From: Paraburkholderia fungorum
Lineage (GTDB): Bacteria; Pseudomonadota; Gammaproteobacteria; Burkholderiales; Burkholderiaceae
Direction: 5' to 3'
Assembly: GCF_900099835.1 (NCBI RefSeq)
Contig: NZ_FNKP01000003.1
Span: forward strand, 930,001 to 994,000
DNA: 64,000 bases
Shown here piece by piece: positions 12,922 to 64,000 of the stretch. Under the pieces are notes generated by a model. It was not told the DNA's origin. It did no database searches and was given only the letters and a program-made list of their open reading frames with translations. Within the stretch, counting starts at the first letter, position 1. Each line of letters opens with the position of its first letter. Both the position numbers and the translations under genes were made by a program.

Positions 12922-12987
12922 GTCGAAACTTTCCTTTGAGTACGCATTAAGCAGCGGAACACTTGTGTCATGGCGGATTCGCTGTTT

Positions 12988-14124: not shown

Positions 14125-14660
14125 ACGGGAACTCCGTTACGCGGATTGACTTGCCACGGTGCATCGAAAAGACGTTCAGTGCGAAAGTGTTGAATCAGCC
14201 ACGTCAGTCCTCGATCGTGACGCGAGGGCACGAAGTCCACTTCAAGGCGCGCCGCGATCAACTCCGCTTGCCCATCGATATAGCCGGATGCCTGCAACAT
14301 GATCCAGCGTCCCCTGGCTTTATCGGCATCGTCAGCCACTTCGATATGTTCCGAGGTCAGGAAATGCACGTTGGTCGAAAAATGCGGCGTGGGCGGCAGA
14401 TATCGTTGCAGCATCGCGGCGATCTGCGCGCGTCCGTGCAGACATCCGAACTTGTTTGCGTATGGCGAGCCGATACCTTCCCACACGGCGTCTTCTGAAA
14501 AGAGCGCGGCGAGCGATTCGCCGTCTTGTGCCTGCGTGGGAACGTCGCACAACGCCATGTAACGCGCGATGGCTTTGCGCACCGAGTTCTGCGCTTCAAG
14601 TGCGATCAATCGCGCCTGCAACGCGCGCAATGCCGTCGTGTCGAATGTCGATTCGGTCAT
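14121..14660 (-). CDS. iacI: SnoaL/NTF2-like protein IacI
   Basis: The 179-residue protein has an N-terminal helical lead (ALQARLIALEAQNSVRKAIARY) followed by an NTF2-like fold (LAALFSEDAVWEGIG, HGRAQIAAMLQRYLP, HFSTNVHFLTS, GRWIMLQASGYIDG). This is the SnoaL-like type present as IacI in iac clusters. Members can be isomerases, cyclases or hydroxylase accessory proteins. It starts five bases after iacB and overlaps iacH by four bases, in one operon. The longer reading frame upstream of 14660 runs through iacB and is not used. Confidence 0.82.
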   Translation of the reverse strand: MTESTFDTTALRALQARLIALEAQNSVRKAIARYMALCDVPTQAQDGESLAALFSEDAVWEGIGSPYANKFGCLHGRAQIAAMLQRYLPPTPHFSTNVHFLTSEHIEVADDADKARGRWIMLQASGYIDGQAELIAARLEVDFVPSRHDRGLTWLIQHFRTERLFDAPWQVNPRNGVPV

Positions 14661-14665
14661 GAACG

Positions 14666-15061
14666 TCAGCCGTTGTTCGTTGCCGAAGTTGCTGCGGCAA
14701 CAGCAGGCGGAACAGCCAGCGCGCGGCCGACACGCGCCTCGATCTTGCCGTAGCGCCACAGGTTGTACTCGCCCACTTGCGTGGTTCGATACAGATTGCA
14801 GACGGCGACAGCCGTGTCGAAATCGGCGACATCGGCCATGATGTAGAACGTCCACGGCGCGCTGTCGGCCTGGCCGACCACCAGCCGGTCGTCGTCCATG
14901 ATGCCGAGGACGCGCACGTTTTCCATCGACTCGACGGCGCTCAGCATCTTGCCGTAGGCCTGCCACACCTCACCTATTTGCTCGCGCGGCAAGTCGAAGA
15001 AATTCTGCGTGACGCCGCAGCAGAAAAGTACACGCAAGGGCAGGTTTCGAGTGTCGGTCAT
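14666..15061 (-). CDS. iacB: IacB, small protein of IAA catabolism
   Basis: The 131-residue protein occupies the place of IacB, directly after iacA (38 bp) and before iacI. It has no recognisable catalytic motif. The pattern LRVLFCCGV, WQAYGKMLSAVESMENVRVLGIMDDDRLVVG, WTFYIMADVADFDTAVAVCN suggests a small alpha/beta ferredoxin-like fold. IacB has no firmly established reaction. The C terminus is Ala-rich and probably disordered. The assignment is by position and by resemblance to the small conserved protein of iac clusters. Confidence 0.75.
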   Translation of the reverse strand: MTDTRNLPLRVLFCCGVTQNFFDLPREQIGEVWQAYGKMLSAVESMENVRVLGIMDDDRLVVGQADSAPWTFYIMADVADFDTAVAVCNLYRTTQVGEYNLWRYGKIEARVGRALAVPPAVAAATSATNNG

Positions 15062-15099
15062 GGTGAGGTTTCCTTATGTTGAATGTCGAATAAAGCGTG

Positions 15100-16269
15100 T
15101 CAGAGATAGCCCGGAATCGGCGGCACGCCGACGAACACCGCACCCGCGCCGTCATAGTTGCCTTCGCCGAGAAACGCGTGTTGCGTGACGACCATCGAGT
15201 CGCGCATCAACCTTTGCAGCGGATGCGTGCGATAGATCGCCATCGTGCCGCCGAGCCGGTACGCGCGGTTCACCACGTCAGCGCCTTCGCGCGCAATCTG
15301 AGTAGCCGACAAACGCAACAGACTGACCTGGTCAGGCGTCACTTCGTTGCCTGCAAGAATCGATTGCCACACGCTATCCGTCGATTCGTAGAAGAACGCG
15401 CGCGCCGAGCGCAGTTGCGCTTCGGCTTTTGCAAGCTCGATCCGGTAGTAAGCGCGGTCTGCGAGTTGTGGCGCACCGGTCGTAGTCTTGCGGCCGCCCG
15501 CCATGTTGTTCGCGACATCGAGTGCGGCCCGTGCGAGACCCAGGTTCACGACCGCCAGCACTTGCGCCGCGTAGGCGATGGTCGGATAGCGATAGAGCGG
15601 CTCGTCGACGGTCGGTGCGCCACCACGCACGAAGGTCCAGTCTTGTGCGACGAACTGGTCGGTTACGCGTAAATCGTGGCTGCCGGTGCCCTGCATGCCG
15701 ACCACGTTCCAGTTCTCGACGATCTCCACCTGTTCCGCACGGAACACAGCCGTTTGCGGCTTGCCAGGTGCGCTGCCTGCGTTGCCCGTGCTGATCCCTA
15801 CGCCGAGCCAGTCCGCGCCCTTGCAACCGCTCGCAAACTTCCACAACCCGTTCACGCGATACCCGCCCGCGGCAGGTGTCGCGTTCTGAACCGGAAAGAG
15901 ACCGCCCGCGAACACCTGGTCCGGCCCGTTCGCGTAGATTGCGGCTTGCGTGGCGAGCGGCAGCGCGGCGAGATACACGTTCGCCGAGCCGAAGCTGGCA
16001 ACCCACGCGGCCGAACCGTCGGCCGCTGCAATGCGCTCGATCATCTGCAGGAATTCGTCAGGCGCGCGCGCGTCACCGCCAAAGCGCTTCGGTGTGGCCG
16101 CACGATAAATGCCCACACGTTTCAGCTTGTCGATTACATCGCGTGGTACGTGTGAGAGCCGTTCGAATTCTTCGCGTCGTTGAGCGATTTCCGCGATCAC
16201 GTCGTCTAGTGTGAGTTCATCCGTCTGATCGACGAGGTCTTCCTTCTTTACGGCAGCGGTGAGCGACAT
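15100..16269 (-). CDS. iacA: Indole-3-acetate monooxygenase IacA
   Basis: The 389-residue flavoprotein has the acyl-CoA dehydrogenase/HpaB-like group D monooxygenase fold. There is an N-terminal helical domain (EEFERLSHVPRDVIDKLKRVGIYRAATPKRFGG), a middle segment (AADGSAAWVASFGSANVYLA, GLWKFASGCKGADWLGVG) and a C-terminal four-helix domain (LYRYPTIAYAAQVLAVVNLGLARAALDVANNMAGG). IacA performs the first oxidation of IAA using reduced flavin from IacG. ATG 16269 gives the N terminus MSLTAAVKKED. It is the first gene of the A-B-I-H-E run and is divergent from the histidine-kinase gene. Confidence 0.9.
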   Translation of the reverse strand: MSLTAAVKKEDLVDQTDELTLDDVIAEIAQRREEFERLSHVPRDVIDKLKRVGIYRAATPKRFGGDARAPDEFLQMIERIAAADGSAAWVASFGSANVYLAALPLATQAAIYANGPDQVFAGGLFPVQNATPAAGGYRVNGLWKFASGCKGADWLGVGISTGNAGSAPGKPQTAVFRAEQVEIVENWNVVGMQGTGSHDLRVTDQFVAQDWTFVRGGAPTVDEPLYRYPTIAYAAQVLAVVNLGLARAALDVANNMAGGRKTTTGAPQLADRAYYRIELAKAEAQLRSARAFFYESTDSVWQSILAGNEVTPDQVSLLRLSATQIAREGADVVNRAYRLGGTMAIYRTHPLQRLMRDSMVVTQHAFLGEGNYDGAGAVFVGVPPIPGYL

Positions 16270-50347: not shown

Positions 50348-51304
50348 CTATTCCCCGGCAACCGCAAGCCTGTCCTCACAGGCCTCGACATCCACGAGGC
50401 CCGGAATCGAAGGTTGCGCGCCATGACGCTGAACGCACAGGCTCGCAGCAATCTGCGCGTGCTTCACCGCATCGACGAGCGCATGACGCGTGGCAAGTTT
50501 CGTCGCGAGCGCACCGACAAACGTGTCGCCTGCCGCGGTCGTATCGACTGCGTGCACTTCGAGCGCCGGATAATGCGTGCCGGGCGTGCCGTCGCCGAGA
50601 ACGTGCACGCCTTGGCCGCCGAGCGTCACGATGACGTTGCGCGCGCCTTTCTGATGCAGTTTCATCGCCGCAGTCGCCACTCCTTCCGCAGAGTCCGTAG
50701 GACATTCTGCGAGGATCGATGCTTCGAACTGGTTCGGCACCAGATAGTCGATCAGCGCATACCAATGTTCTGGCAAGGGCTGCGTGGCCGGCCCGGGATT
50801 CAGCACGGTCAGCCTGGCATGACGGCGTGCCATCACGAGCGCCGCGTACACGGTTTCCGGCGGTGTTTCCAACTGGCAAACGAGGACGTCGCATTGCCGG
50901 AAGCGCTCTTCATTCGCGTGAATGCTCGCGGGCGACAGCACGCCGTTGCTGCCCAACACGACGACGATGCTGTTCTCGCCCGCCGCCGAAACAGTGATCA
51001 ACGCCAGGCCGGTCGGCTGGTCTTCCGAAACTTCGATGCCCGCGCAATCGATACCATCCGCCGCGAGTCCGTCGAGCCGCTGCTTGCCATACGCGTCATT
51101 GCCGACGAAGGCGATCATCGAGACCGTGGCCCCCATGCGCGCGGCCGCCACCGCCTGATTCGCGCCTTTGCCACCGGCGACCGTTTCGAGGCTGCCGGAC
51201 AATACCGTCTCGCCGGCTAACGGCAAACGCTGCGTGCGCGCGACGAGGTCGGTATTGATACTGCCGACGACCAGCACGCGTCCCGCTTCACCTGATACAG
51301 CCAT
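50348..51304 (-). CDS. rbsK: Ribokinase (PfkB family)
   Basis: The 318-residue sugar kinase has the N-terminal PfkB signature (VVGSINTDLVARTQRLPLAGETV, GGKGANQAVAAARMGA) and the C-terminal signature VDTTAAGDTFVGAL with the catalytic Asp. This set is that of ribokinase, which phosphorylates ribose at O5. There is no ribose ABC transporter or rbsD beside it. It lies 54 bp after a TauD-type dioxygenase gene on the same strand, an unusual partner. Confidence 0.85.
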   Translation of the reverse strand: MAVSGEAGRVLVVGSINTDLVARTQRLPLAGETVLSGSLETVAGGKGANQAVAAARMGATVSMIAFVGNDAYGKQRLDGLAADGIDCAGIEVSEDQPTGLALITVSAAGENSIVVVLGSNGVLSPASIHANEERFRQCDVLVCQLETPPETVYAALVMARRHARLTVLNPGPATQPLPEHWYALIDYLVPNQFEASILAECPTDSAEGVATAAMKLHQKGARNVIVTLGGQGVHVLGDGTPGTHYPALEVHAVDTTAAGDTFVGALATKLATRHALVDAVKHAQIAASLCVQRHGAQPSIPGLVDVEACEDRLAVAGE

Positions 51305-51358: not shown

Positions 51359-52432
51359 TTACAGACGCGGTACCGCCGCGACGCCGATCCTGAAGTTGCC
51401 GCGCGTATCGTCGCTTTCCTGATCGCGCGCCTCGTAGCGCTGCTGCACCACCCCGTTCTTGCCGAAGCCGGGAATCAGCGAGCGCGGGGAACTGCGGCGC
51501 AGCCACAGGCGCAACAGATGCCGGCGACGTTGCGGCTCCGGGAAGTCGGTGAAACGTGTACGCGAATGCAGCGCCGCGTAGTTCGACAGCCATTGAATAT
51601 CGCCGGGGCGGAAATCCATCGCGAGCGACATGCCGGGCTCGTAGGTGATGGTCTCGAACAACTCCAGCACTTCCTTCTGCTCGGGCGTGAGGCGCGGCAC
51701 TTCCGGGTAGTCCTGCGCGGTCAGGATATACAGCGAGCCTGCGTACATGCTGAAGGTGCCGTCGACAAAACTCACGATCGGCGAAACGTACGTGTTTTCC
51801 GGCGCATTGTGATCCTGGCGACGCCAGTCCCAATGAAACGGCTCCAGCAGCAGAGGCGCGAGGTCGGGGCGTCGTTTCAGAATTTCGTTGTAGATTTCCG
51901 CGCCTGAGACGATGCACGACGCGCCGCCTTCGAGTGCCGGACGCAGGCACATCAGCGCGACGACGTCCGAGCTGTCCGAGTGAAACGGCAGAAGATCGCG
52001 AATTTTGGCGGACAGTGCATCGGGGTCGTCGAGCATCTTGTCGGAGGTCGCGTAGACGTGATCGAGCAGATCGCCGAGTTCGTTCTGACGGATCGGATCG
52101 CCCATGTGCAGGCCGAGAATGTAGTAAATCGCCGCCGACAGCGCATCGGAATACAGATGCGTACGCAGCCCGCGCGCGAGTACGAAACCGCAGCCTTCGT
52201 CAATGTCCTTGCACCATTCGTCGACAGCGGCGGCGCAGGCGGAGAGCGGATAATCCGACGCCTTGACGAAGCGCAGATCAGGGTCGTCTTCGACAAAGCG
52301 CCGTCCGAGCGCTTCCAGTTCGCCGATCTGATCTTCGTTCAGATAGTAGATCCAGTTCTGCCTGTCGAGGAGTGTGTCGCCGCGCCACGCAGCGGCGCTG
52401 GTGACGGGGGACAGCGCTACAGAGGTCGTCAT
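51359..52432 (-). CDS. TauD/TfdA-family Fe(II)/2-oxoglutarate dioxygenase
   Basis: The 357-residue non-haem iron oxygenase has iron ligands visible as His151 and Asp153 (PFHSDSSD) and His289 (NYAALHSRTRF), followed by the Arg-rich stretch that binds 2-oxoglutarate (RRRHLLRLWLRR). Members hydroxylate taurine, sulphonates, gamma-butyrobetaine-like compounds or herbicides. The substrate is not predictable here. It lies just upstream of the ribokinase gene. The ferroxidase-type fold is complete and the length normal. Confidence 0.87.
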   Translation of the reverse strand: MTTSVALSPVTSAAAWRGDTLLDRQNWIYYLNEDQIGELEALGRRFVEDDPDLRFVKASDYPLSACAAAVDEWCKDIDEGCGFVLARGLRTHLYSDALSAAIYYILGLHMGDPIRQNELGDLLDHVYATSDKMLDDPDALSAKIRDLLPFHSDSSDVVALMCLRPALEGGASCIVSGAEIYNEILKRRPDLAPLLLEPFHWDWRRQDHNAPENTYVSPIVSFVDGTFSMYAGSLYILTAQDYPEVPRLTPEQKEVLELFETITYEPGMSLAMDFRPGDIQWLSNYAALHSRTRFTDFPEPQRRRHLLRLWLRRSSPRSLIPGFGKNGVVQQRYEARDQESDDTRGNFRIGVAAVPRL

Positions 52433-52539: not shown

Positions 52540-53745
52540 TCAACCCTCGTAAGACGCAGCAGGCAGCCGCCGAGGCGTGCGCATCGTGCTCGCCAGCCAG
52601 CAGACAATACCGCTCGCGACGGCCAGCGCCAGGCCGTCGGCCATGCGCAACGCGCTGTCGAATACGAACGGCGGCGCGCAGCCGGAAATCAGCGCGAAGA
52701 TGAACATCTGCACGAAGTTTTGCAGCGACGCGGCCATGCCGCGCGTCGTCGGCAGATGGGCCTGGGTGATCGACGACATTGCGGGCATCGCGAGCGCCAT
52801 ACCGAAGGCGTAGAGCGCGAGCGGCATGATCGCCCACGGCAGCGCGGCCACGTGCGTCGCGTTGTAGGCGAGGTTCAGCACGGCCGCGAGCGCGGTCGCG
52901 CCGAGGCCCGCGCGTACCGTCACGCGATTGCCGTAGCGGTCGGCGAAACGCGCGCTGAGCGCCGAACCGGCGATCACGCCGGCAATCAGCGGCACGAATA
53001 GCCAGCCGAATGCCGTGTCCGGCTGATGCAGGATGTGCATCACGAAGTTGGCCGCGCACGAGATGTACAGCGCGAAGCCGCCGAATGCGCAGCCGTTCGC
53101 CAGCACGCCGAATACGAAACGCCGGTGGCGAAGCGCGTCGCCGTAATTACGCATGATCGTGGGCAGACGGAATGGATGCCGCGCCGAAAGCGGCAGGCTC
53201 TCCGGTAGCCAGCGCCGGCAGACCACGAGCAACGTCAACGAGAACACCGCGAGCAGGCCGAAGATCGCACGCCAGCCGAACAGTGCATTCAGCTGGCCGC
53301 CGAGTATCGGCGCGACGGCGGGCGCGAGCGCAAACACCATCATGATGTTCGCGAGCGTGCGCTGCACGGCCGCGCCGCTCATCGTGTCGCGCACGATGGC
53401 CTGGCCGATCACCATGCCCGCGCCCGCCGACAGCCCCTGCAGCCCCCGGAACGCGAGCAGCGCGGAGAAGGTGGGCGCGAAAGTGGCGCCTACCGATGCG
53501 GCCGTGAACATCGTCAACGCGGCGATCATCACGCGGCGCCGGCCGAACGAATCGGACAGCATGCCGTAGAACAGCGTCATGACCGCATAGCAGAACAGAT
53601 AAACGCTCAGTGTCATCTGCGCCATCTCCGCGCTGATCGCGAATTGCCGTCCCACTGCGGACAGCGCGGGCAAATAGCTGTCGGTTGCGAACGGGCCTAG
53701 CATCGAAAGAGCGGCGAGCAGCAGCGTGAGCCGGCGGGACTTCAT
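52540..53745 (-). CDS. Bcr/CflA-type MFS drug exporter
   Basis: The 401-residue 12-helix MFS transporter opens MKSRRLTLLLAALSMLGPFATDSYLPALSAVGRQF and contains the Bcr/CflA motifs GMLSDSFGRRRVMI, RGLQGLSAGAGMVIGQAIVRD and the PESLP end of the first half. It would export drugs or metabolites with proton antiport. It starts 20 bp after an SDR gene on the same strand, so both belong to one transcript. Confidence 0.88.
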   Translation of the reverse strand: MKSRRLTLLLAALSMLGPFATDSYLPALSAVGRQFAISAEMAQMTLSVYLFCYAVMTLFYGMLSDSFGRRRVMIAALTMFTAASVGATFAPTFSALLAFRGLQGLSAGAGMVIGQAIVRDTMSGAAVQRTLANIMMVFALAPAVAPILGGQLNALFGWRAIFGLLAVFSLTLLVVCRRWLPESLPLSARHPFRLPTIMRNYGDALRHRRFVFGVLANGCAFGGFALYISCAANFVMHILHQPDTAFGWLFVPLIAGVIAGSALSARFADRYGNRVTVRAGLGATALAAVLNLAYNATHVAALPWAIMPLALYAFGMALAMPAMSSITQAHLPTTRGMAASLQNFVQMFIFALISGCAPPFVFDSALRMADGLALAVASGIVCWLASTMRTPRRLPAASYEG

Positions 53746-53765: not shown

Positions 53766-54491
53766 TCAGACGGTCTGGTTCGTCGCCGCGAGCATGATTT
53801 CGCGGATGCAAACGTTTTGCGGCATTTCATACGCGAAACGGATCGCTTCGGCGACTTCGTCCGGCTCCAGAATCACGCCGCCGATCGATTCCTTCCATTC
53901 CTGGAAGCCCTGCTTGATCGAGTCGTTGGTGGTGATCGTCTGCAGTTCGGTGTTGCAGGCGCCGGGCGCGATCAGCACCACGCGCACGTTGTGCGGCGAC
54001 ACTTCCTCGCGCAGATTCTCCGATAGCGCATGCACCGCGTGCTTCGTGCCGACATAAGCGACATGCTGCGGATACGTCTTGCGGCCCGAGGTCGAACTGA
54101 CATTGACGATCGTGCCGCGCCGCCGCGCGACCATGCCTCCAAGCACCGCATGCACGCCGTTGAGCACGCCCTTCACGTTGACATCGAGCATCCGTTCCCA
54201 TTCTTCCGGCGGCTGCTGAGTCATGTCGCCGAGCAGCATCACACCGGCGTTGTTGATGATCGCATCGGCGGGGCCGAACTTCGCTTCGGCCTCGCTGACA
54301 GCGGCGACCAGCGCCGCGCGATCGGTCACGTCGACCTGACGGCACAGCGTGTCGGGCAGTTCCAGCGATTCGAGCCGGCCGAGCCGGCGCGCGAGCAGAA
54401 GCAGCGGATAACCCCGTTGCGAGAACAGCCGCGCGGTAGCTTCACCAATGCCCGAACTGGCGCCCGTAATGATGACAAGACCTTTCGACAT
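53766..54491 (-). CDS. Short-chain dehydrogenase/reductase (YdfG-like)
   Basis: The 241-residue SDR has TGASSGIGEAT (cofactor), NNAGVML (110 region), and catalytic Ser plus YVGTKHAV. The C-terminal pattern EPDEVAEAIRFAYEMPQNVCIREIMLAAT is that of the YdfG/serine-3-dehydrogenase-like group. A strong AGAGGAAAG ribosome binding site precedes the ATG. It is the first gene of a two-gene unit with the MFS exporter. Confidence 0.88.
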   Translation of the reverse strand: MSKGLVIITGASSGIGEATARLFSQRGYPLLLLARRLGRLESLELPDTLCRQVDVTDRAALVAAVSEAEAKFGPADAIINNAGVMLLGDMTQQPPEEWERMLDVNVKGVLNGVHAVLGGMVARRRGTIVNVSSTSGRKTYPQHVAYVGTKHAVHALSENLREEVSPHNVRVVLIAPGACNTELQTITTNDSIKQGFQEWKESIGGVILEPDEVAEAIRFAYEMPQNVCIREIMLAATNQTV

Positions 54492-54602
54492 CTTCTTTCC
54501 TCTTTCAGGTAGGTAAGCCTCGACGGCAGCGTTGCGAGCTTAAGCGCGCAACGCCCGCGGTGCTTGTCTGGAAGCGCGCGAAAGCTTGTTGACGGGCGCA
54601 TC

Positions 54603-54634
54603 TTTTTGACGCGGGGACACGAAGTTTTTTGACG
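54603..54634 (+). promoter_or_regulatory. Direct repeat upstream of the porin gene
   Basis: TTTTTGACG occurs at 54603-54611 and again at 54626-54634, 23 bp apart (about two helical turns), each followed by a G run. The TTGACG in each is like a -35 hexamer. It lies 150-180 bp before the porin start and may be part of its promoter or an activator site. Confidence 0.35.
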
Positions 54635-54784
54635 GGGTATTAATCAATTCCCCACGCGCATTTGGTCAAGAATTGCCGATATTGCCTGGATAGCGTTGAA
54701 CGTACCGAATTTCGCTGCCTGTCGCGCGCAGGGGCGGCCATTCGTATCGAAGAAATCACGTTCCCTCTATTCAGGACCACGCTA

Positions 54785-55900
54785 ATGAAAAAGTATCTGA
54801 CGGGCTTTGCCATGCTGATTGCAGTGAGTAGCGCGCATGCGCAAAGCTCGGTCACGCTATATGGCCTTATCGACGCCGGCTTCACGTACATCAACAATCA
54901 GGGCGGCGGGAAGCTCTACGAGTTTCAGGACGGCGCGAATTTCGGCAACCGCTTCGGCTTCAAGGGCAGCGAAGATCTCGGCGGTGGACTGAAGGCCGTT
55001 TTCCAGCTTGAAAACGGTTTCTCGCTCGGAACCGGTCAGTTGCGAAACAACGGCGCGCTGTTCGGCCGCCAGGCTTTTGTCGCTCTGCAAAGCAACTACG
55101 GCACGCTGACGATGGGCAATCAGTATGACTTCATCGCGGACTACATCACGCCGTTCAACCTCAACGGTTATGCCAGCGTGTACGCGGGCCACATGGGCGA
55201 CATCGACCGGATCTCCGCCGTCGAACTGCCGAACTCGGTCAAGTATCAGAGCCCGACGTTCGGCGGTCTGAGCTTCGGCGGCATGTGGAGCTTCGGCAAT
55301 GTGGCGGGCAACTTCAGACAGGACAGCGCATACAGTCTCGGCCTGAGCTACAAGAACGGCGGCTTCAATACGGCGGCGATTTACGAGCGCATTCACGACG
55401 TCGAAATCTACCCGTACGCGCAATTCGGCGTGTTCAATTTCCTCGGACAGACAGTCGCGACGCACAACGCCGACGGCAGCGTCAACGATCTGTTCTATTC
55501 GTCGCCGTTTCTCGTCGACACGCAGTCCGAGTTCGGCATCGGCGCGAGCTATACGCGCGGCAAGCTGACGCTGGCGGCCAACTTCACGTCGACGCACCTC
55601 GAAGCGTCGACCGGCAGCGACACCATGAACGTCTACGAAGCCGGCGCGATGTATTTCGTCGCGCCCGACATCGCGGTGCTCGGCGGCTACCAGTACACGA
55701 CGTGGGATCACACGCACTGGCATCAGCCGACGCTCGGCGCGCAGTACTACCTGTCGAAGCGGACCAGCTTCTACGTGAACGTGTCGTATCTGCACGCGCA
55801 GCCGGGCGTCAATGCGAACCAGGGCGCGGGCTTCTACTCGCTGCCGTCGAGTACGAACACGCAGCTCACGTCCCGCATCGCGATCATTCACCAGTTCTAG
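54785..55900 (+). CDS. Gram-negative porin (Burkholderia OmpC-like)
   Basis: The 371-residue protein has a signal peptide ending SAHAQ and the mature start SSVTLYGLIDAGFTYINNQ, the hallmark of Burkholderiales trimeric porins. There are 16-strand features such as FGFKGSEDLGGGLKAVFQLENGFSLGTGQ and LFGRQAFVALQSNYGTLTMGNQYD, and the C terminus is ...SRIAIIHQF with a terminal Phe. It is the first gene on the plus strand of the uptake/Rieske cluster, 141 bp before the binding-protein gene, and may provide outer-membrane entry for the same substrate. Confidence 0.95.
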   Translation: MKKYLTGFAMLIAVSSAHAQSSVTLYGLIDAGFTYINNQGGGKLYEFQDGANFGNRFGFKGSEDLGGGLKAVFQLENGFSLGTGQLRNNGALFGRQAFVALQSNYGTLTMGNQYDFIADYITPFNLNGYASVYAGHMGDIDRISAVELPNSVKYQSPTFGGLSFGGMWSFGNVAGNFRQDSAYSLGLSYKNGGFNTAAIYERIHDVEIYPYAQFGVFNFLGQTVATHNADGSVNDLFYSSPFLVDTQSEFGIGASYTRGKLTLAANFTSTHLEASTGSDTMNVYEAGAMYFVAPDIAVLGGYQYTTWDHTHWHQPTLGAQYYLSKRTSFYVNVSYLHAQPGVNANQGAGFYSLPSSTNTQLTSRIAIIHQF

Positions 55901-56041
55901 CCCGTTTCGCGCGCGCCGGAGGCAGGAAAGCGTGCGCGCGCGGACAAGACAGTGCGGTTTTGTCCTTTTAATCTGAAGCCATGTCGTGCCGGTTTTACCT
56001 CATGGCCGCAACGAGGCGCTTCGCGCAAAGAACTTATCCCC

Positions 56042-57598
56042 ATGACTACTCGCAGAAACTTCATTCAGATGCTGGGCGGCACGCTCGCGGGCCTGACGGG
56101 CCCCGCAGCGGGCGCGCTCGGCGCGTTGGGTGCGCTCGGCGTGAGCACGAGTGCCGACGCCGCCAACGGCCCGCTGACGATCGCCTTTCCGACCGACGTG
56201 CCTTCGTGGGACCCGCTCGTGCGCGTCGCACCGAATCCGATTTCGATCTACCGCAGTGTGTTCGACGCCGCGCTCGACATCGACGCGAAAGGCAAGCTTG
56301 GCGCGGGTGTGGTCACCGCGTGGCGCTGGAAAGACACGGCGGGCAAGGTGCTGGAACTGGACTTCCGCAATGACGTGCTATTTCACAACGGCGACAAGCT
56401 CACTTCCGACGATTTCAAATTCACGCTGTTCGACCGGCTCCAGGCCGATAAATCGCTGCAGGTCGGCGGCATCTGGTGGGCGCTCGAAGGCATCGAAACG
56501 CCGTCGCCCACGCGCGCCGTCATGCATTTCAAGGCGCCGATGATTACCGCGCCCGCATTCCTCGGCTATATGGGCAGCTACATTCTGCCGCGCAAGTACT
56601 TCGAGCAGGTCGGCGCGCAGGGCTTCATCGCCAAGCCCGTCGGCTCCGGGCCGTACAAGCTGGTCGCCTACGAGCGCGATTCGCGGATGACCCTGGCCGC
56701 GTTCGACAAACACTGGCGCGGCACCCCGAAAATCCGCGACGTGGTGTTTCAGGTCGTGAAGGACCCGACCGCGCGCGTGGCGGCGGTGCAGGCATCGCAG
56801 GCGGACGTCTCCGGCATGTTGCCGCTGCGTGAGGCAATGCGCCTTGCGCAAGGCGGCACGCACGAAAGCAGGATCACGCCGACCATCGATTCGTATCTGA
56901 TCCATATGGTGAACGGCGGCCCGACGCAGGACAAAAATGTGCGTCTGGCGATGCATCACGCGATCGACAAGCAGGCGCTTGCGCGTGCGTTCTTCAACAA
57001 CGTGCCCGCGCCGATGGCCACCCCGGCCGCGCCCGGCACACCGGCCTTCGACCCCGACTTCAAATTTGCGTTCGACCCCGCGCAGGCGAAGGCGCTGCTC
57101 GCCAAAAGCGGCTATTCGACCGACAAGCCCGTGCGCGTCAAATTCCTCGCGACCAACGGCGTCTATCCGAGCGACTACGACATGGCGCGCGCGATCCAGC
57201 AGATGTGGAAAAAGGTGGGCATCGAGGCCGAACTGAGCCCGATCGAAACGGCGCAGTTCTTCTCGCAGGCGGTGGCCGGCACGCTGCCCGGACCGACCTT
57301 GTGGATGTGGCAGAACGGCAGCGGCGACCCGGAACTGTCGGCGGGTTCGTATCTTAATCCGAAGACGGGCTTTTCGGTCTGGCGCAGCGCCGACGTGTCG
57401 CCGCGACTCGATCCGCTGCTCGCCGAACTGGATGAAACGAAGCGCATCGCGGGCTACAAGGACTTTCATCGCTGGGCGGTCGGCGAGGGCTATGCGCTGC
57501 CGCTGATGCAAGGCATCGCCACCGCGTCGTACAGGAAAGGCGTGCAGTACACGCCGTTTTTGAGCGGCTGGATGCTGCCCGATTACTGGAGCGCGTGA
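56042..57598 (+). CDS. Family-5 ABC solute-binding protein, Tat-exported
   Basis: The 518-residue protein has a twin-arginine signal (TRRNFIQMLGGTLAGLTG). The mature body is of the peptide/opine/nickel-binding type (SBP_bac_5): AFPTDVPSWDPLVRVAPNPISIYRSVFDAALDID, LDFRNDVLFHNGDKLTSDDFKFTLFDRL, GSGPYKLVAY, VRLAMHHAIDKQALAR. It delivers a dipeptide-like or amphiphilic substrate to the downstream DppBC-type permeases. ATG 56042 was chosen because it places the Tat motif at the N terminus. Only 39 bp separate it from the Rieske oxygenase gene, so uptake and oxidation are linked in one operon. Confidence 0.9.
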   Translation: MTTRRNFIQMLGGTLAGLTGPAAGALGALGALGVSTSADAANGPLTIAFPTDVPSWDPLVRVAPNPISIYRSVFDAALDIDAKGKLGAGVVTAWRWKDTAGKVLELDFRNDVLFHNGDKLTSDDFKFTLFDRLQADKSLQVGGIWWALEGIETPSPTRAVMHFKAPMITAPAFLGYMGSYILPRKYFEQVGAQGFIAKPVGSGPYKLVAYERDSRMTLAAFDKHWRGTPKIRDVVFQVVKDPTARVAAVQASQADVSGMLPLREAMRLAQGGTHESRITPTIDSYLIHMVNGGPTQDKNVRLAMHHAIDKQALARAFFNNVPAPMATPAAPGTPAFDPDFKFAFDPAQAKALLAKSGYSTDKPVRVKFLATNGVYPSDYDMARAIQQMWKKVGIEAELSPIETAQFFSQAVAGTLPGPTLWMWQNGSGDPELSAGSYLNPKTGFSVWRSADVSPRLDPLLAELDETKRIAGYKDFHRWAVGEGYALPLMQGIATASYRKGVQYTPFLSGWMLPDYWSA

Positions 57599-57637
57599 TA
57601 ACGCCGCGCAACGAGTGAGACAACCAGAGAACCTGCA

Positions 57638-58885
57638 ATGATCAATAAACCCCTTCATCCGAAGTTCGACGCTGAATTCTTTGCCGCACTGGACCGGTCC
57701 GCGGCGCATGTCAGCCAGGCCGAGACGCTGCCGCCCGCGTGCTACACGGATGCCGATTTCTTCGAGTTCGAAAAGGAAGCGCTGTTCAACCACGAATGGC
57801 TGTGCGTGGGCCGCGAAGACTGGATCCGCAATCCGGGCGACTATTTCACGACGTCGATCGTCGGCGAGCCGCTCGTCATCACGCGCAATGCAAAGCGCGA
57901 AATCAAGGCGATGTCGTCGGTCTGCCAGCATCGCGCGATGGTGGTTGCCGAAGGCTTCGGCAATGCACGCGCGCTGCTGTGTCCGTATCACCATTGGGCC
58001 TACTCGCTCGACGGCGAACTGATCGCCGCGCCCGCGATGGAGGAAACCGAGGGCTTCGACAAGAAAGATTTTTGTCTGCCGACGATGCAGGTCGAATGCT
58101 GGCAGGGTTTCATCTTCATCAATTTCGATCACGCCGCCGCGCCGCTCGGCCCGCGTCTCACGGCACTCGATGCTGTGCTCGAAAACTTCGACCTGAAAAG
58201 CGCCGAAGGTCCGCGCCCGGAGCAGCCGTTCCATTTTCAGTGGAACTGGAAGGTGATGTTCGAGAACAACAACGACGGGTATCACGCGAACCGGCTGCAT
58301 CATGGCCCGTTGCACGATTTCGTGCCGAGTTCGCTGGCGCGCTTCCCGACGGAATTGCCCGAGAACACAGCCGGTTATTACCGGACCAACGGCACGCTGC
58401 ACGCCGACGCGGCATTCAATCCGACCCAGCGGGCTTTGTTCCCGGTCTTCCCGAAACTGACCGACGAAGAACGCAACCGCATGCTGTTCGCGAATCTGCC
58501 GCCGACGCTATCGCTGGTCGTATCCGTCGACAGCGTGATTTTCATGATCCTGCGCGCGGATTCGGCGGGCACGCATTATCTCGATCAGGGCGTGCTGTAC
58601 GCCCCCGGCGCGATGAAAGACCCGCTGTTCGAGAAGCGCGTCGAGATGAGCATGAGCGCGGTGTCGGACATCATCGCGCAGGATCTGCATGTGGACGAAA
58701 TGGTGCAGGTCGGTCTGCAGTCGCGCTATGCAGTACGCGGACGATATTCGTGGCAGGAGCGCGCACAGCAGGAACTGAATGCGTGGCTCGTGCCGCGCTA
58801 CCAGACGACCTATCAACGCATGAGCGAGACGGCCGCGAGCGCGAAGGGCAGGCTGGCCGCCATCGATGTCGTCGTCGCAGATTGA
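57638..58885 (+). CDS. Rieske-type oxygenase catalytic subunit
   Basis: The 415-residue protein has a Rieske [2Fe-2S] centre with Cys96/His98 (CQHRA) and Cys115/His118 (CPYHHW). The mononuclear iron site is D-x2-H-x4-H with Asp213, His216 and His221 (NNNDGYHANRLHH). The architecture is that of the GbcA/aromatic-ring-hydroxylating group. No small subunit gene is present, so it is probably a homotrimer. Its place inside an ABC-importer operon and the reductase gene seven kilobases downstream suggest that it oxidises the imported compound by hydroxylation or N-/O-dealkylation. The substrate is not predictable. Confidence 0.9.
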   Translation: MINKPLHPKFDAEFFAALDRSAAHVSQAETLPPACYTDADFFEFEKEALFNHEWLCVGREDWIRNPGDYFTTSIVGEPLVITRNAKREIKAMSSVCQHRAMVVAEGFGNARALLCPYHHWAYSLDGELIAAPAMEETEGFDKKDFCLPTMQVECWQGFIFINFDHAAAPLGPRLTALDAVLENFDLKSAEGPRPEQPFHFQWNWKVMFENNNDGYHANRLHHGPLHDFVPSSLARFPTELPENTAGYYRTNGTLHADAAFNPTQRALFPVFPKLTDEERNRMLFANLPPTLSLVVSVDSVIFMILRADSAGTHYLDQGVLYAPGAMKDPLFEKRVEMSMSAVSDIIAQDLHVDEMVQVGLQSRYAVRGRYSWQERAQQELNAWLVPRYQTTYQRMSETAASAKGRLAAIDVVVAD

Positions 58886-58898
58886 CGAAGGCACGCTC

Positions 58899-59963
58899 AT
58901 GAGCACGTCCATCGAAGTGGGAGCGGCTTCGCGCGGAATGGCTTCAGGCGCGGGGCGGCGCGTCATGAAGTTCGTACTGCGCGGTGCCCGGCGTGTCGCC
59001 ATTCTGATCGCGGTGTCGGTCGTGATCTTCGGTGCGCTGCGCCTGTTGCACTCGGACCCGGCGGCGCTGCTGCTGCCGCCGAACGCGAGTGTCGCGCAGA
59101 TCGCCGAAGTGCGGCACGGACTCGGGCTCGATCAGCCGATTGCCGTGCAGTATTTGCGCTGGCTCGCGAACATGCTGCACGGCGATTTTGGTCATTCGTT
59201 GCAGAACGGCCAGCCGGTCTGCGGCTTGATCGCGGCTGCGCTGCCGACCACGCTGCAACTGCTGGCGGGCGGTCTGCTGCTCGGCGTGATCGCAGGCGTG
59301 GCGAGCGCCGTCTACGCGTTCAGCCGGCGCGACACGCTGGCCGAACGACTCTGCGAGATGCTCAACGGGATCGCGATGGCCGTGCCCGATTTTCTGTGGG
59401 GCATTCTGCTCGTGCTGCTGTTCGGCATTGCACTTCGATGGCTGCCGTTTCTCGGTCCGATCGACAACACCTACACGGTCGCGCGGCACACCGGCTTCCT
59501 GCTGGTCGACACACTGATCGACGGACAAATCGCCGCCTTCGGCAATGCACTGCTGCACCTCGTGCTGCCCTGCGTCGCGCTCGGCATGGGCATCGCGCCG
59601 CCGCTGATGCGCATTCTCCGTTCGAGCCTGCTCGATACCTATGCCGAGGAATACATCCACGCGGCGCGGCTGCGCGGCCTCACCGAAGCGCAGATTCTGC
59701 GGCGGCACGGCTGGCGCAACGCCGCGCTGCCGACGCTGAATATTCTCGCGATGCAGGTGAGTCTGCTGATCGGCGGCACGTTGCTGGTCGAGAAGGTCTT
59801 CGGCATGCCGGGTATCGGCACGCTGATGATCAACGCGATTGGTGCCCGCGACCTGCCGGTAATCGAAGCGCTCGCGCTGATTTACGCCGTCGTTGTCCAG
59901 TTTTCGAATGCGGCTGTCGATGCGCTCGAAGTGTTGCTCAACCCGCGTCTGAGGCGAGTATGA
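58899..59963 (+). CDS. DppB-type ABC permease
   Basis: The 354-residue permease has an N-terminal membrane helix (RVAILIAVSVVIFGALRLLHSDPA), a periplasmic segment and the BPD_transp_1 domain with the cytosolic EAA-like loop AARLRGLTEAQILRRHGWRNAALP. It starts 13 bp after the Rieske gene with a GAAGG ribosome binding site and overlaps the next gene by four bases. It pairs with the DppC-type permease to form the membrane channel of a family-5 importer. Confidence 0.92.
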   Translation: MSTSIEVGAASRGMASGAGRRVMKFVLRGARRVAILIAVSVVIFGALRLLHSDPAALLLPPNASVAQIAEVRHGLGLDQPIAVQYLRWLANMLHGDFGHSLQNGQPVCGLIAAALPTTLQLLAGGLLLGVIAGVASAVYAFSRRDTLAERLCEMLNGIAMAVPDFLWGILLVLLFGIALRWLPFLGPIDNTYTVARHTGFLLVDTLIDGQIAAFGNALLHLVLPCVALGMGIAPPLMRILRSSLLDTYAEEYIHAARLRGLTEAQILRRHGWRNAALPTLNILAMQVSLLIGGTLLVEKVFGMPGIGTLMINAIGARDLPVIEALALIYAVVVQFSNAAVDALEVLLNPRLRRV

Positions 59964-60874
59964 ATACACCGCTTGTTTCCACCGCGACGACCCGGCCCCC
60001 ATCGCCCGTTCACGCCGCGCTGTGGCGGATTGCACGCGAGCCGCGTGTGCTGTTCGGCGCGGGCGTACTGCTGCTGCTCGTGATCGTCGCGCTCTGCGCA
60101 CCCGCTATCGCGCCGTACCGGCCCGACGATCAGGATCTGCTTTCCACCTTGCTGCCGCCCGCGTGGGCGCCCGGCGGCACCGCGCAGCACTGGTTCGGCA
60201 CCGATTCGCTTGGCCGGGACGTGCTGAGCCTCGCGATCTACGGCGCGCGCATTGCCGTGCTGGTCGGATTCATCGCGCCGCTCGGCACAGCGTTGATCGG
60301 CGGCGTGTTGGCAGTGCTCGCCGGCTGGTTCGGCGGCAAGGTGGACTGGCTGGTGCTGCGCGTGGTCGAAGTGTGGATGTCGTTTCCCGCCGTCGTGCTG
60401 GCGCTCGTGCTGGTCGTCGCGATGTCGCCGAGTATCGCCAACGTGATCGTCGCGCTCGTCTTCGTCGACTGGACGCGTTTTTGCCGCGTGCTGCGTGCCG
60501 AGGTCATTGTGATCCGGCGGCGCGATTATGTGGCGGCGGCGCGCATTGCAGGCGCCGGTCCGCTGGCGACGATCCTGCGCGACGTGTTGCCAGCGCTGAT
60601 GCCCACGCTCATCACGCTGATGAGTCTCGAAGTCGGCATTGCGATTGTCGCCGAGTGCAGTCTGTCGTTCGTCGGTCTGTCCGCCGATGCGAGCCAGCCG
60701 AGCTGGGGAACCATGGTGTCCGACGGCCTCGCCAACGTATTCACGTCGCCGTGGGGGCTGATTCTGCCGATCGCCTGTCTGGTTCTCTCCGTTCTGGCCA
60801 CGACCTTCCTCGGCGAAGGCCTGCGCCGCACGACGGATTCACGACTTCTCGAACGTTCGGAGCGGCGCGCATGA
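59960..60874 (+). CDS. DppC-type ABC permease
   Basis: The 304-residue permease begins with the OppC_N segment (REPRVLFGAGVLLLLVIVALCAPAIAPYRPDDQD), then HWFGTDSLGRDVLSLAIYGARIAVLVGF, and an EAA loop AARIAGAGPLATILRDVLPALMP. It overlaps both neighbours by four bases, so the operon is translationally coupled. It is the partner of the DppB-like protein. Confidence 0.92.
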   Translation: MNTPLVSTATTRPPSPVHAALWRIAREPRVLFGAGVLLLLVIVALCAPAIAPYRPDDQDLLSTLLPPAWAPGGTAQHWFGTDSLGRDVLSLAIYGARIAVLVGFIAPLGTALIGGVLAVLAGWFGGKVDWLVLRVVEVWMSFPAVVLALVLVVAMSPSIANVIVALVFVDWTRFCRVLRAEVIVIRRRDYVAAARIAGAGPLATILRDVLPALMPTLITLMSLEVGIAIVAECSLSFVGLSADASQPSWGTMVSDGLANVFTSPWGLILPIACLVLSVLATTFLGEGLRRTTDSRLLERSERRA

Positions 60875-62721
60875 TGGGCATGTTCAAAACTCCGGCGCCA
60901 GCCGTGGCGCTCGCGGCCACCGCGCACGGAACCGGCGACGAGCTGCTCACGCTCGCGGCGCTCAACGTCGAGCGCGATGGCGTGGCGTTGCTGCGCGATA
61001 TCGCGTTGTCGGTGCGGCGCGGCCGCACGCTCGGACTCGTCGGCGAGTCAGGGGCGGGCAAGAGCATGCTCGGCAGGGTGCTCGCGCGCAGCCTGCCGCG
61101 CGGCTTCGAACTACGCGCCGACGAACTGCGATTTGCCGGCATCGATCTGTTGAGTGCGAGCGCGACGCAGCAACGCGCGTTGCTCGGCAAGCGCATCGCC
61201 TACATTCCGCAGGAGCCGATGAGCGCGCTCGATCCGACTCTGCCGGTCGGCAAGCAGTTCGCCCTTCATCTCGCGCGGCTGGGCGTGGCGGCGCACGAGC
61301 GCAAACAGCGCAGCATCGAAGCGTTAGCGGAAGTGCTGTTGCCCGATCCGGCGAACCTGCTGGCGCGTTATCCGTTCGAACTGTCGGGCGGCATGTGCCA
61401 GCGCGTTTGCATCGCGATGGCGTTCGCGAGCAATCCGGATCTGGTGATCTCCGACGAAGCGACCACCGCGCTCGATGTCACCACGCAACGCCATGTCGTC
61501 GAGCTGATGCGTGAGATGCAGGTGCGGCGCGGCACCAGCGTGATTTTCGTCACGCACGACATCGGTCTCGCGCTGCACGCGTGCGACGACATCGCCGTGC
61601 TTTATGCGGGCGATCTGGTCGAGTCCGGTCCGGCCCGCGAGCTGGTGAATTCGCCGCGTCATCCCTATACGCGCGCGCTGTTGCGCGCCAATCCGGTGCT
61701 GAAGGGCGAGCGCGTGCGTGTCGAACCGCTGAACGGCCACATGCCGGGCTTCGAGGAACTGGGCACCTTGCACGGCTGCCGGTTCGCCGCGCGCTGCGCC
61801 GACGTCACGCCCGCCTGCGGCAGCGCGCCCATTGCAATTCGTACGAGCGAAGGGCGCGCGGTGCGGTGCCTGCGGGTGGACGCGTTGCCGGAAGCGCCTG
61901 CTCGGGTGCCGCTCGCGGCTCGCAATGCGATGGCGGCGACGCCGTTTCTCGAATTGCGCGGCGTCGGCAAGCGTTATGACAAGTCGTCGGTGCGCGCGTT
62001 GCAGCCGCTCGATCTGACGATTGCGCCGGGAGAGTTCGTCGGCATAGTCGGAGAGAGCGGCAGTGGCAAGAGCACGCTCGGGCGACTGGTGATGGGGCTC
62101 GAAACGCCCAGCGAAGGGCGGATTCTGCTCGACGGCCAGCAACTCGATGCCAGCCGCGCGATGTGGCACAAGCGTATCGACGCGATCCAGATGATCTTTC
62201 AGGACGCGCGCGCCGCGCTGAATCCACGGCGGCGACTCGCCAGCATCGTCACGCAGCCCATGGAAAGCCGTTCGCATCTGCTGGTGGACCGCGCACGCCG
62301 CGCGCTCGATCTGCTCGACGAAGTCGGTCTCGCGCCCGCCTATGCGGCACGCTTTCCGTCCCAGTTGTCGGGCGGACAGCGGCAGCGCGTGAATATCGCA
62401 CGCGCGTTGTGCGACGTGCCGCGTCTGCTCGTCGCCGATGAAATCGTCTCCGGTCTCGACGTGTCGATGCAGGCTCAGATCATGGAACTGCTGCTCGCGT
62501 TGCGCGAGTCCCACAAGATCGCGCTGATGCTGATCTCGCACGATCTCGCCGTGGTCCGCTATCTGTGTTCGAGAGTCATCGTGATGCAGCGCGGCGTGGT
62601 CGTCGAGGCGGGCGCGACCGAAGCGGTGCTGGCGAATCCGCAACATCCGTATACGCAAAGCCTGATCGACGCGGCGCCGCATGTCGCGCAACCCGATTCC
62701 CTTACCGCATTGAACGCATAA
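60871..62721 (+). CDS. Fused double ATPase of a family-5 ABC importer (DppD-DppF)
   Basis: The 616-residue protein holds two ATPase units in one chain. Unit 1 (about residues 25-290) has Walker A GESGAGKSM and a signature that reads LSGGMCQR, Walker B LVISDEATTALD, and a C-terminal oligopeptide segment (PYTRALL, CRFAARCADVTPACG). Unit 2 (about 350-600) has GESGSGKST, LSGGQRQR and LLVADEIVSGLD. This corresponds to DppD fused to DppF. ATG 60871 overlaps the permease stop; the frame is open further upstream but that part is inside the permease gene. Confidence 0.92.
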   Translation: MMGMFKTPAPAVALAATAHGTGDELLTLAALNVERDGVALLRDIALSVRRGRTLGLVGESGAGKSMLGRVLARSLPRGFELRADELRFAGIDLLSASATQQRALLGKRIAYIPQEPMSALDPTLPVGKQFALHLARLGVAAHERKQRSIEALAEVLLPDPANLLARYPFELSGGMCQRVCIAMAFASNPDLVISDEATTALDVTTQRHVVELMREMQVRRGTSVIFVTHDIGLALHACDDIAVLYAGDLVESGPARELVNSPRHPYTRALLRANPVLKGERVRVEPLNGHMPGFEELGTLHGCRFAARCADVTPACGSAPIAIRTSEGRAVRCLRVDALPEAPARVPLAARNAMAATPFLELRGVGKRYDKSSVRALQPLDLTIAPGEFVGIVGESGSGKSTLGRLVMGLETPSEGRILLDGQQLDASRAMWHKRIDAIQMIFQDARAALNPRRRLASIVTQPMESRSHLLVDRARRALDLLDEVGLAPAYAARFPSQLSGGQRQRVNIARALCDVPRLLVADEIVSGLDVSMQAQIMELLLALRESHKIALMLISHDLAVVRYLCSRVIVMQRGVVVEAGATEAVLANPQHPYTQSLIDAAPHVAQPDSLTALNA

Positions 62722-62725
62722 GCAC

Positions 62726-63544
62726 ATGTCCACCAATCACACACGTATGCCGGTGATGTTCTTCGGCCACGGCAGTCCCATGAATGCGCTCGAAGACAAT
62801 CGCGCGACCCGCGCGTGGGCGTCGATGGGCGCGGCGGCGGGCACACCGCGCGCGATCCTGATGATCTCCGCGCATTGGCTCACGCGCGGCACGGCCGTCA
62901 CCGCGATGAGCCAGCCGCGCACCATCCACGACTTCGGTGCTTTCCCGCCGGCGCTATTTGCGCAGCAATATCCGGCGCCGGGAGACCCCGCGCTGGCGAG
63001 CCGCGTCGCCGAACTGCTCGCGCCGCTGCCGGTCACGCTCGACGACCGATGGGGCTTCGATCACGGGACGTGGTCGGTCCTCGGCAAGGCCTTTCCCGAT
63101 GCGCGTATTCCGGTCGTGCAGGTCGGCATGAATCGCAGTTGCGACGCCCGTTGCCACTACGAGTTGGGCCGCGCGCTCAGACCGCTGCGCGACGAAGGCG
63201 TGTTGATCGCGGCGAGCGGCAACATCGTGCACAACCTGCCCGCGATGGACTGGAGCAAGCCCGATTCGGGCTACGCGTGGGCGCAGACGTTTCACGACCG
63301 GATCGCGAATGCCATTGCCGGGAACCGGCCCGATGAAGTCATCGACTACGAAAAGGCGGGCGCGATCGCGCTCCATTCGGTGCCGACGCCCGATCACTAC
63401 TGGCCGGTGCTGTACGCGCTCGGCGCGCGTCACGATGACGACGACGTGAGCTTCGAAAGCAACTTCCTCGAGTATGGCTCGCTGAGCATGCTGAGCTTTA
63501 TTCTCGGCAAGCGCAGCGGCTCGGGTTTGCAGGAGGCCGCGTGA
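62726..63544 (+). CDS. LigB/DODA-type extradiol dioxygenase (YgiD-like)
   Basis: The 272-residue protein is of the class III extradiol ring-cleavage family in the YgiD/4,5-DOPA-dioxygenase branch. Likely metal ligands are His15 (FFGHGSP), His50 (ISAHW), His169 (GNIVHNL) and His224 (TPDHYWP); DHGTW is the family loop. Plant and bacterial members open a catechol ring of DOPA-like or related compounds, which could be the step after the Rieske oxygenation. It starts 5 bp after the double ATPase and overlaps the next gene by four bases. Confidence 0.88.
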   Translation: MSTNHTRMPVMFFGHGSPMNALEDNRATRAWASMGAAAGTPRAILMISAHWLTRGTAVTAMSQPRTIHDFGAFPPALFAQQYPAPGDPALASRVAELLAPLPVTLDDRWGFDHGTWSVLGKAFPDARIPVVQVGMNRSCDARCHYELGRALRPLRDEGVLIAASGNIVHNLPAMDWSKPDSGYAWAQTFHDRIANAIAGNRPDEVIDYEKAGAIALHSVPTPDHYWPVLYALGARHDDDDVSFESNFLEYGSLSMLSFILGKRSGSGLQEAA

Positions 63545-64000
63545 GCCACTACGAAGCGCCGCTGAAACTGCGGGTGGTCGAGCGCCGGGAGGTGGCGGCG
63601 AACATCGTCGCGTTCGATCTGGAAGCCGCCGACTACTTGCCGTTGCCCGCGTTCGACGCGGGCGCGCACATCGAGATCGATTGCGACGGTGTGGCGCGTC
63701 AGTATTCGCTGTGCAGCGATCCCGCCGACCCGATGCGCTACCGGATCGCCGTGCAACTCGAAACGCAGGGGCGCGGCGGCTCGCGCTTCATGTGCGAACG
63801 CGTACAGGTTGGCGATGCGCTCGACGCAGCGGGACCGCGCAATCATTTTCCGATGAACGTTTCGCAGACGTCGGCGTTGCTGGTGTCCGGCGGAATCGGC
63901 ATCACACCGATGCTCGCGATGGCGTCGACGCTGTACGCGGCCGGCACGCCGTTCGACATGCATGACTTTGCGTCGGCAGCCGAGCGCCAGGCGTTCGTCG
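63541..64000 (+). CDS. PDR/VanB-type oxidoreductase (partial, Rieske reductase)
   Basis: The first 153 residues are present; the gene runs off the right edge. GTG 63541 has AGGAGG five bases upstream and overlaps the preceding stop. The FMN-binding RQYSLCSDPAD and NAD-domain start GGIGITPMLAMAST place it in the phthalate-dioxygenase-reductase family, like IacF. It is the probable electron donor for the Rieske oxygenase of the same operon. A [2Fe-2S] ferredoxin domain is expected at its missing C terminus. Confidence 0.9.
   Translation, partial: MSHYEAPLKLRVVERREVAANIVAFDLEAADYLPLPAFDAGAHIEIDCDGVARQYSLCSDPADPMRYRIAVQLETQGRGGSRFMCERVQVGDALDAAGPRNHFPMNVSQTSALLVSGGIGITPMLAMASTLYAAGTPFDMHDFASAAERQAFV

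Follow-up and report, generated by a model that had tools for sequence, protein, structure and literature searches.

We analyzed a 64,000-nt stretch of the Paraburkholderia fungorum genome (NCBI RefSeq assembly GCF_900099835.1, contig NZ_FNKP01000003.1, positions 930,001 to 994,000, forward strand; hereafter, the window). An operon on its plus strand combines a porin, a family-5 ATP-binding cassette (ABC) importer, a Rieske oxygenase, a LigB-family extradiol dioxygenase, and a reductase, and runs over the right edge of the window. This catabolic gene set is real and conserved, and it is apparently undescribed: no cluster with this gene order or content was found by a full-text literature search, in line with a preliminary description of the same DNA that had recognized no known pathway in it.

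Gene content of the operon

Domains were assigned using Pfam and NCBIfam profiles, and the contig was read past the window edge. The operon consists of the following genes:

54785-55900, plus strand: outer-membrane porin (Porin_4; PF13609, 171.5 bits), the first gene of the operon
56042-57598, plus strand: family-5 (SBP_bac_5) substrate-binding protein (SBP), exported by twin-arginine translocation (Tat) (PF00496, 217 bits; twin-arginine motif TRRNFI)
57638-58885, plus strand: Rieske oxygenase alpha subunit (PF00355 and PF00848)
58866-59963, plus strand: ABC permease, DppB/OppB type (PF00528 and PF19300)
59960-60874, plus strand: ABC permease, DppC/OppC type (PF00528 and PF12911)
60871-62721, plus strand: fused double ABC ATPase with oligo_HPY domains (PF00005 twice and PF08352)
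62726-63544, plus strand: YgiD/DODA-type extradiol dioxygenase, LigB family (NF007914, 320.2 bits versus the cut-off of 233)
63541-64509, plus strand: phthalate dioxygenase reductase (PDR)/VanB-type reductase with Fer2, FAD, and NAD domains, cut by the window edge at 64000
64543-65622, plus strand, outside the window: FmdA/AmdA-type amidase, 33 bp after the reductase
65619-66539, plus strand, outside the window: LysR regulator, which overlaps the amidase gene by 4 bp and closes the operon

The genes and domains named in the preliminary description were all present, with the Rieske gene between those of the SBP and the permeases. Reading past position 64000, a check that it had proposed, completed the reductase (to 64509) and added the amidase, the LysR regulator, and an AraC regulator downstream of the latter. 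The region had been given as starting at 53766, which belongs to a short-chain dehydrogenase/reductase (SDR) gene on the opposite strand, outside the operon; the operon start at the porin (54785) stands. The tight packing reported earlier was confirmed for the 4-base overlaps and short gaps (SBP-Rieske, 39 bp; Rieske-permease, -20 bp, where a later ATG would leave a short gap; then -4, -4, +4, and -4 bp), but the porin-SBP gap of 141 bp exceeds the claimed 5-40 bp.

The CxH..CxxH and N..D.YH....H motifs of the Rieske alpha subunit are intact, as is the plant-type ferredoxin motif of the reductase, which matches phthalate dioxygenase reductase (2pia) at 200.6 bits. The LigB protein aligns with the E. 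coli YgiD structure 2pw6 over 258 residues (286 bits) and, as judged by the curated NF007914 cut-off, is a member of the YgiD-type (DODA) family; it passes the YgiD equivalog cut-off, but the gene lies here within an oxygenase-importer operon. The FmdA assignment is made at the family level only, because the protein exceeds the Pfam FmdA_AmdA cut-off (123.1 versus 27 bits) but not that of the curated formamidase model NF045496 (79.5 versus 500 bits). None of the NCBIfam models listed reached its cut-off with the SBP. As predicted from these sequence families, the most likely chemistry is oxidation of a ring, then its extradiol cleavage and the hydrolysis of an amide.

Conserved neighborhood of the Rieske gene

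A search with the Rieske protein returned 2186 relatives among 8000 scored candidates, and 353 encoding places were confirmed when one genome per species was scanned with a profile. The best 80 of the 353 were used, and the locus counts thus describe the closer relatives. The open reading frames of the loci were grouped de novo into gene families, the presence of which was then counted by tblastn in 83 loci (our own and L009-L090), none of which was dropped. About 10 kb per side of the Rieske gene was covered, with full flanks in 62 loci. Our own stretch ended at the window edge; therefore, its FmdA and PDR genes come on top of the counts.

The relatives are spread across Proteobacteria, including Caulobacter, Phenylobacterium, Novosphingobium, acetic acid bacteria, Variovorax, Paraburkholderia, and marine gammaproteobacteria. 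Two of them are plasmid-borne, in Kozakia (L009:1538-22260; the plasmid is typed as mobilizable) and in Novosphingobium (L010; typed as conjugative). The Rieske gene was found in 4 of 144 genomes of the window's genus (E <= 1e-100) and in 4 of 299 genomes of a family sample; it is therefore an accessory trait there.

LigB was detected in 73 of the 83 loci, with at least 45% identity in 64 and 29-39% in 9, and in 55 of the 62 full-flank loci; the full-flank loci in which it was not found are L016, L017, L019, L036, L042, L070, and L085. FmdA was present in 64 of 83 loci, and in all 64 the identity of the main copy to the nearer of two queries was 67% or higher. The other families were represented as follows (out of 83): TauD1/2 in 57, a RutA-like luciferase-like monooxygenase (LLM) in 48, SDR in 47, VOC in 41, an isochorismatase-type hydrolase in 40, an ArgE/DapE-like (M20-type) hydrolase in 36 (all recovered by the Kozakia query alone), ribokinase in 26, PDR in 24, TauD3 in 20, the family-5 SBP in 15, and HydA (CapA-like) in 10.

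A second, divergent FmdA (35-40% identical to the query) occurs in L010, L024, L048, L050, L053, L055-L057, L059, L060, L066, L078, L080, L083, and L088-L090. Since the two copies lie side by side, two different amides may be hydrolyzed.

The LLM was found in 48 loci and HydA in 10, with no locus having both and 25 having neither. If the loci are treated as independent, such exclusion is expected by chance in about 8 of 100,000 cases; the loci are, in fact, related, and the exclusion applies to the roughly 10 kb covered per side. This mutual exclusion suggests that the LLM oxygenase and the CapA/hydantoinase-A-like genes are alternative openers of one lactam. The loci in which caprolactamase/hydantoinase-like A and B genes (HydAB) replace the LLM are L026, L028, L029, L031, L045, L049, L062, L067, L069, and L074; the same ten carry an IclR regulator and, mostly, an HpcH aldolase.

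Near-identical gene order was observed in five Burkholderiaceae loci (L011-L015). In L014, a TauD gene is inserted between the porin and the SBP, and L015 has no match for LysR. Given this recurrence, and only six LigB-family matches in the 8.58 Mb of our own genome, the order of the operon is not due to chance. The following genes adjoin the operon on the opposite strand:

53766-54491, minus strand: SDR oxidoreductase, divergent from the operon
52540-53742, minus strand: Bcr/CflA-family MFS transporter (TIGR00710, 224.3 bits versus the cut-off of 200.9)
51359-52432, minus strand: TauD3, a TauD/TfdA-type 2-oxoglutarate dioxygenase, the family of which includes the TauD-domain protein of L055 (PF02668)
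50348-51304, minus strand: ribokinase (RbsK), which passes the curated ribokinase cut-off (349.9 versus 299.65 bits); its membership in the gene set is uncertain

The SDR is kept beside the cluster in L011-L014 (79-92% identity), TauD3 is also found in L012, L013, and L015, and in L012 a protein of similar length sits between TauD3 and the SDR, as the MFS transporter does in the window. The RbsK gene is 54 bp from TauD3 on the same strand; its membership is uncertain because its product is 33-44% identical to the cluster RbsKs and thus not especially close to them. In a separate observation, a minus-strand 206-aa protein (L007:7725-8345) is closest to NpdG, an NADPH-dependent F420 reductase (74.2 bits versus the cut-off of 149.8), and has relatives in 8 of the 83 loci.

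TauD3 has the H.D...H motif, and its closest PDB entries are 7n7v and FrbJ (5eqn). Its sole NCBIfam match is trimethyllysine dioxygenase. For the Rieske protein, the closest curated model is GbcA and the closest PDB chain is CntA, and GbcAB/CntAB likewise pair a one-subunit Rieske oxygenase with a reductase carrying FAD and [2Fe-2S]. One could thus consider demethylation of a quaternary amine of the betaine or carnitine type, with the Rieske enzyme as a GbcA/CntA relative and TauD3 as a relative of butyrobetaine hydroxylase. We consider this very improbable. The scores are far under the family cut-offs (126 versus 670 bits for GbcA; 19.6 versus 268.3 bits for TauD3), and the gene content differs, LigB and FmdA having no evident role in betaine catabolism. 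In addition, the bridging residue of CntA is a glutamate, in contrast to the aspartate of the N-N-D-G-Y-H motif found in 28 of 28 aligned Rieske relatives. Two other candidates were rejected. A taurine/sulfonate role for the TauD genes was dropped because the taurine-amine contact residues are not kept in TauD2 (hand count), although it aligns well with taurine dioxygenase (224 bits). Homarine catabolism was dropped because the literature match concerned glycine betaine in Vibrio.

The importer in related loci

The preliminary description proposed to check the co-conservation of LigB, Rieske, and importer genes. LigB does accompany the SBP, in 12 of 15 SBP loci (11 at 45% identity or higher), but the importer is not universal: 68 of the 83 loci have no SBP within the stretch covered, and many of those have TonB receptors or MFS transporters. 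Within these loci, the combination of porin and family-5 importer is confined to Burkholderiales, Pseudomonas, and Oceanospirillaceae. In the Rieske tree, which was midpoint-rooted without an outgroup, the 15 importer-only rows require 3 label changes versus 14.1 in shuffles, and LLM-bearing rows share the part of the tree in which they are nested. Because of this limited taxonomic range and nested position, the importer appears to be a transport module that was swapped, whereas the catalytic core is conserved.

The importer and the LLM module are not alternatives in principle, since both occur together in Thalassolituus and in Variovorax. The second Thalassolituus locus (L130:5140-16664) encodes a flavin reductase, an ArgE/DapE-like (M20) protein, an isochorismatase-type protein, an LLM, an MFS transporter, a Tsx-family channel, and a second family-5 importer. 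In Variovorax (L019), the importer, an LLM operon, and a Tsx homologue (53%) are found all together.

Candidate substrates

The main clues to the substrate come from the relatives. We searched 18 genomes for ribokinases; they were picked because the cluster has RbsK, from the 25 loci other than our own with RbsK. The cluster copy was the best TIGR02152 match of the genome in all 18, and 6 of the 18 cluster ribokinases pass the curated cut-off. The cluster LLM scores best with RutA, yet does not reach the TIGR03612 cut-off (252.6 and 256.2 versus 498.3 bits). In the Variovorax L019 LLM, the residues aligned with RutA Thr105 and Asn134 are kept, and the Trp139 position is Ser (numbering placed by hand); the relevant part of the RutA account assigns Thr105 and Asn134 to the dioxygen pocket (PMC10005588). 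Further neighbors in relatives include caprolactamase-like pairs, a TRZ/ATZ-type amidohydrolase, an allophanate hydrolase family in four loci (annotated in L085), and a PhoD phosphatase family in five (annotated in L083). A Tsx-family channel (34 versus 27.2 bits) is also among them; in Thalassolituus L130 and Variovorax L019, the LLM operon includes such a channel. An HpcH/HpaI-type aldolase and a cupin occur together in eight HydAB-type loci and adjoin each other in L069. Together, the ribokinase, the enzymes for N-containing rings and amides, the Rieske, LigB, and aldolase genes, and the Tsx and PhoD proteins fit catabolism of a ribose-bearing N-heteroaromatic compound.

The Rut pathway is similar in that relatives join the RutA-like LLM, a flavin reductase (in Kozakia, closest to RutF), and an isochorismatase-type hydrolase (in Kozakia, closest to biuret hydrolase) in one neighborhood; both Kozakia proteins score below cut-off. 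It differs in that the cluster LLM reaches only about half of the RutA cut-off (256 versus 498 bits) and that our own genome has just a distant LLM elsewhere. The rut system is not known to include Rieske, LigB, or FmdA proteins. Our own genome does contain a separate, second Rut-like operon (C3:25001-44000, L110, about 8573-15219, minus strand) with a nitroreductase, a Rid protein, a RutA-like LLM, an ABC ATPase and permease, an SsuA-like binding protein, a flavin reductase, and an AraC-like regulator. This operon (C3:34672) was examined as a possible missing module, and its LLM was rejected as an orthologue because it is less identical to the cluster LLMs (39-48%) than is the LLM of Variovorax L019 (49-67%).

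The preliminary description placed import, Rieske/PDR ring oxidation, and extradiol-type cleavage in one gene run, which holds; its suggested substrate, a catecholic amine or amino-acid conjugate, is not supported. Import and ring cleavage of such a compound, or of one resembling 3,4-dihydroxyphenylalanine (DOPA) or betalain, would be in line with the LigB score above the 4,5-DOPA-extradiol-dioxygenase cut-off, and family-5 importers carry peptides. However, that model names a sequence family and not a tested substrate, and no amine oxidase or aminotransferase family was found among the annotated conserved neighbors. The wider neighborhood points to N-heterocycle and amide chemistry (FmdA, RutA-like or CapAB/hydantoinase-like, biuret-hydrolase-like, and allophanate hydrolases) and to ribose salvage; the FmdA, RutA-like or CapAB-like enzymes, ureido hydrolases, and ribokinase of the relatives would have no evident role. 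This substrate is therefore improbable.

The sequence data show which genes are present and in what order, which domains they encode, their co-conservation, and, in relatives, the link to ribokinase; the reactions, the direction in which they run, and the substrate are all inferred from these. Our preferred, although tentative, interpretation is that a conserved proteobacterial pathway degrades an N-rich heteroaromatic compound bearing a ribose or ribityl group, with the operon as its importer-type form and flavins (riboflavin or products of its breakdown) as the best single candidate. The porin and the Tat-exported binding protein with the ABC importer would serve uptake. TauD3 may oxidatively strip an N-linked side chain, so that ribose would pass to the ribokinase. 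The Rieske oxygenase and PDR reductase would hydroxylate the ring at N-bearing carbons, freeing a vicinal diol; the YgiD-type LigB would cleave the diol ring; and FmdA would hydrolyze the leftover small amide (oxamide/oxamate or formamide). In other lineages, a RutA-like oxygenase or a CapAB-like lactamase, in either case together with ureido hydrolases, may first open a uracil-like ring.

Flavins are considered because they combine a ribityl chain, a uracil-type ring, a benzene ring, and, in flavin mononucleotide (FMN) and flavin adenine dinucleotide, phosphate, and because the published lumichrome pathway includes a Rieske, an extradiol, and an aldolase step, while the Pseudomonas RF route was never assigned its enzymes. 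In the parts of the lumichrome account used here (PMC12746152), lumichrome degradation in Nocardioides simplex involves a P450, pyrimidine-ring hydrolases, a thiamin-dependent decarboxylase, a xanthine oxidase, a Rieske dioxygenase acting on a quinoxaline dione, an extradiol dioxygenase, a pyrone hydrolase, a cupin hydratase, and a retro-aldolase. The same parts describe the older Pseudomonas RF route (1958), in which the C-ring is lost first, then the ribose, leading to a quinoxaline and a pyrone, with urea and oxamide as products; its enzymes were not reconstituted, and pathway variants may exist (PMC12746152). In the relevant part of another account, Microbacterium and Devosia riboflavina have the only characterized riboflavin-to-lumichrome pathways (PMC12934955).

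The likeness to the Lum enzymes is one of enzyme class and size only. Both systems have a Rieske dioxygenase followed by an extradiol dioxygenase, as well as hydrolases acting on a uracil-type ring, and the cupin and HpcH/HpaI-type aldolase of the HydAB-type relatives represent the classes of LumY and probably LumX. In contrast, the Rieske enzyme LumC/LumD is of the alpha-beta type and has a ferredoxin and a reductase as separate proteins, LumE has a mass of 46 kDa, and the host is an actinobacterium; an FmdA-type enzyme is not mentioned in those parts of the lum account (PMC12746152).

A more specific proposal, which we regard as rather doubtful, is that the gene set encodes the vitamin B2 pathway so far missing from Gram-negative bacteria, an oxidative route with a logic like that of the lost Pseudomonas RF strain, and that the operon in the window is its lower half, acting with its own importer on flavin breakdown products. 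A RutA-like oxygenase or an ATP-dependent lactamase would open the uracil ring, and a 2-oxoglutarate dioxygenase would remove ribose for the ribokinase. The one-subunit Rieske enzyme would split a quinoxaline dione into a catechol and oxamide, to be opened by LigB and hydrolyzed by FmdA, respectively.

Several results weigh against the flavin interpretation. Our own genome has no match for the cluster VOC or ArgE/DapE-like proteins (searches without a positive control), and its best matches are 37% for TauD1 (TauD2 was not searched separately), 42% for the LLM, which falls outside the cluster LLM group, and 37% for HydA. The uracil-ring half was thus not found in our own genome; therefore, the operon would either cover just the lower part of such a route or serve another substrate. 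In this strain, riboflavin cannot be connected to the operon by a direct route, and the flavin interpretation is weakest here. Of 14 importer-type genomes searched, some of them draft or metagenome-assembled, only two have an LLM near the cluster type (74% in Thalassolituus, 47% in Pseudomonas bohemica); the best-scoring match of each of the remaining 12 was 25-37% identical or absent. RbsK lies near the Rieske gene in 25 other loci, and in none of the other 14 SBP loci. No FMN riboswitch reached the gathering score in 18 sources near clusters, and no P450, xanthine-oxidase-type, thiamin-dependent decarboxylase, or RcaE-type gene was found among the conserved families that were annotated, which comprise part of the open reading frames; the first three of these classes are present in the lum pathway.

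In a variant that we regard as about as likely as the flavin interpretation, the same pathway would act on another N-heteroaromatic or nucleoside-like substrate, e.g., a pyridine nucleoside, a benzimidazole riboside (alpha-ribazole), a hydroxypyridone, or a modified nucleoside. FmdA would then hydrolyze a ring-derived formamide, and the ring opened by LigB would be that of a dihydroxy-heterocycle or a catechol. This possible alternative covers FmdA as a formamidase, the ribokinase, the Tsx-type channel, and the ureido and amide hydrolases, and it needs no uracil-ring module in this strain. On the other hand, no single other compound that we considered explains, by reasoning, the RutA-like oxygenase or lactamase, ribokinase, Rieske, extradiol, and aldolase genes as economically as flavin does.

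The catalytic core is kept across many Proteobacteria, which points to a common environmental compound, the degradation genes for which are seemingly unassigned. If the compound is a flavin, these would be the genes of a pathway outlined in 1958 and a vitamin sink in soil, root, and sea communities, and a physiological role for a YgiD/DODA-type enzyme would be suggested.

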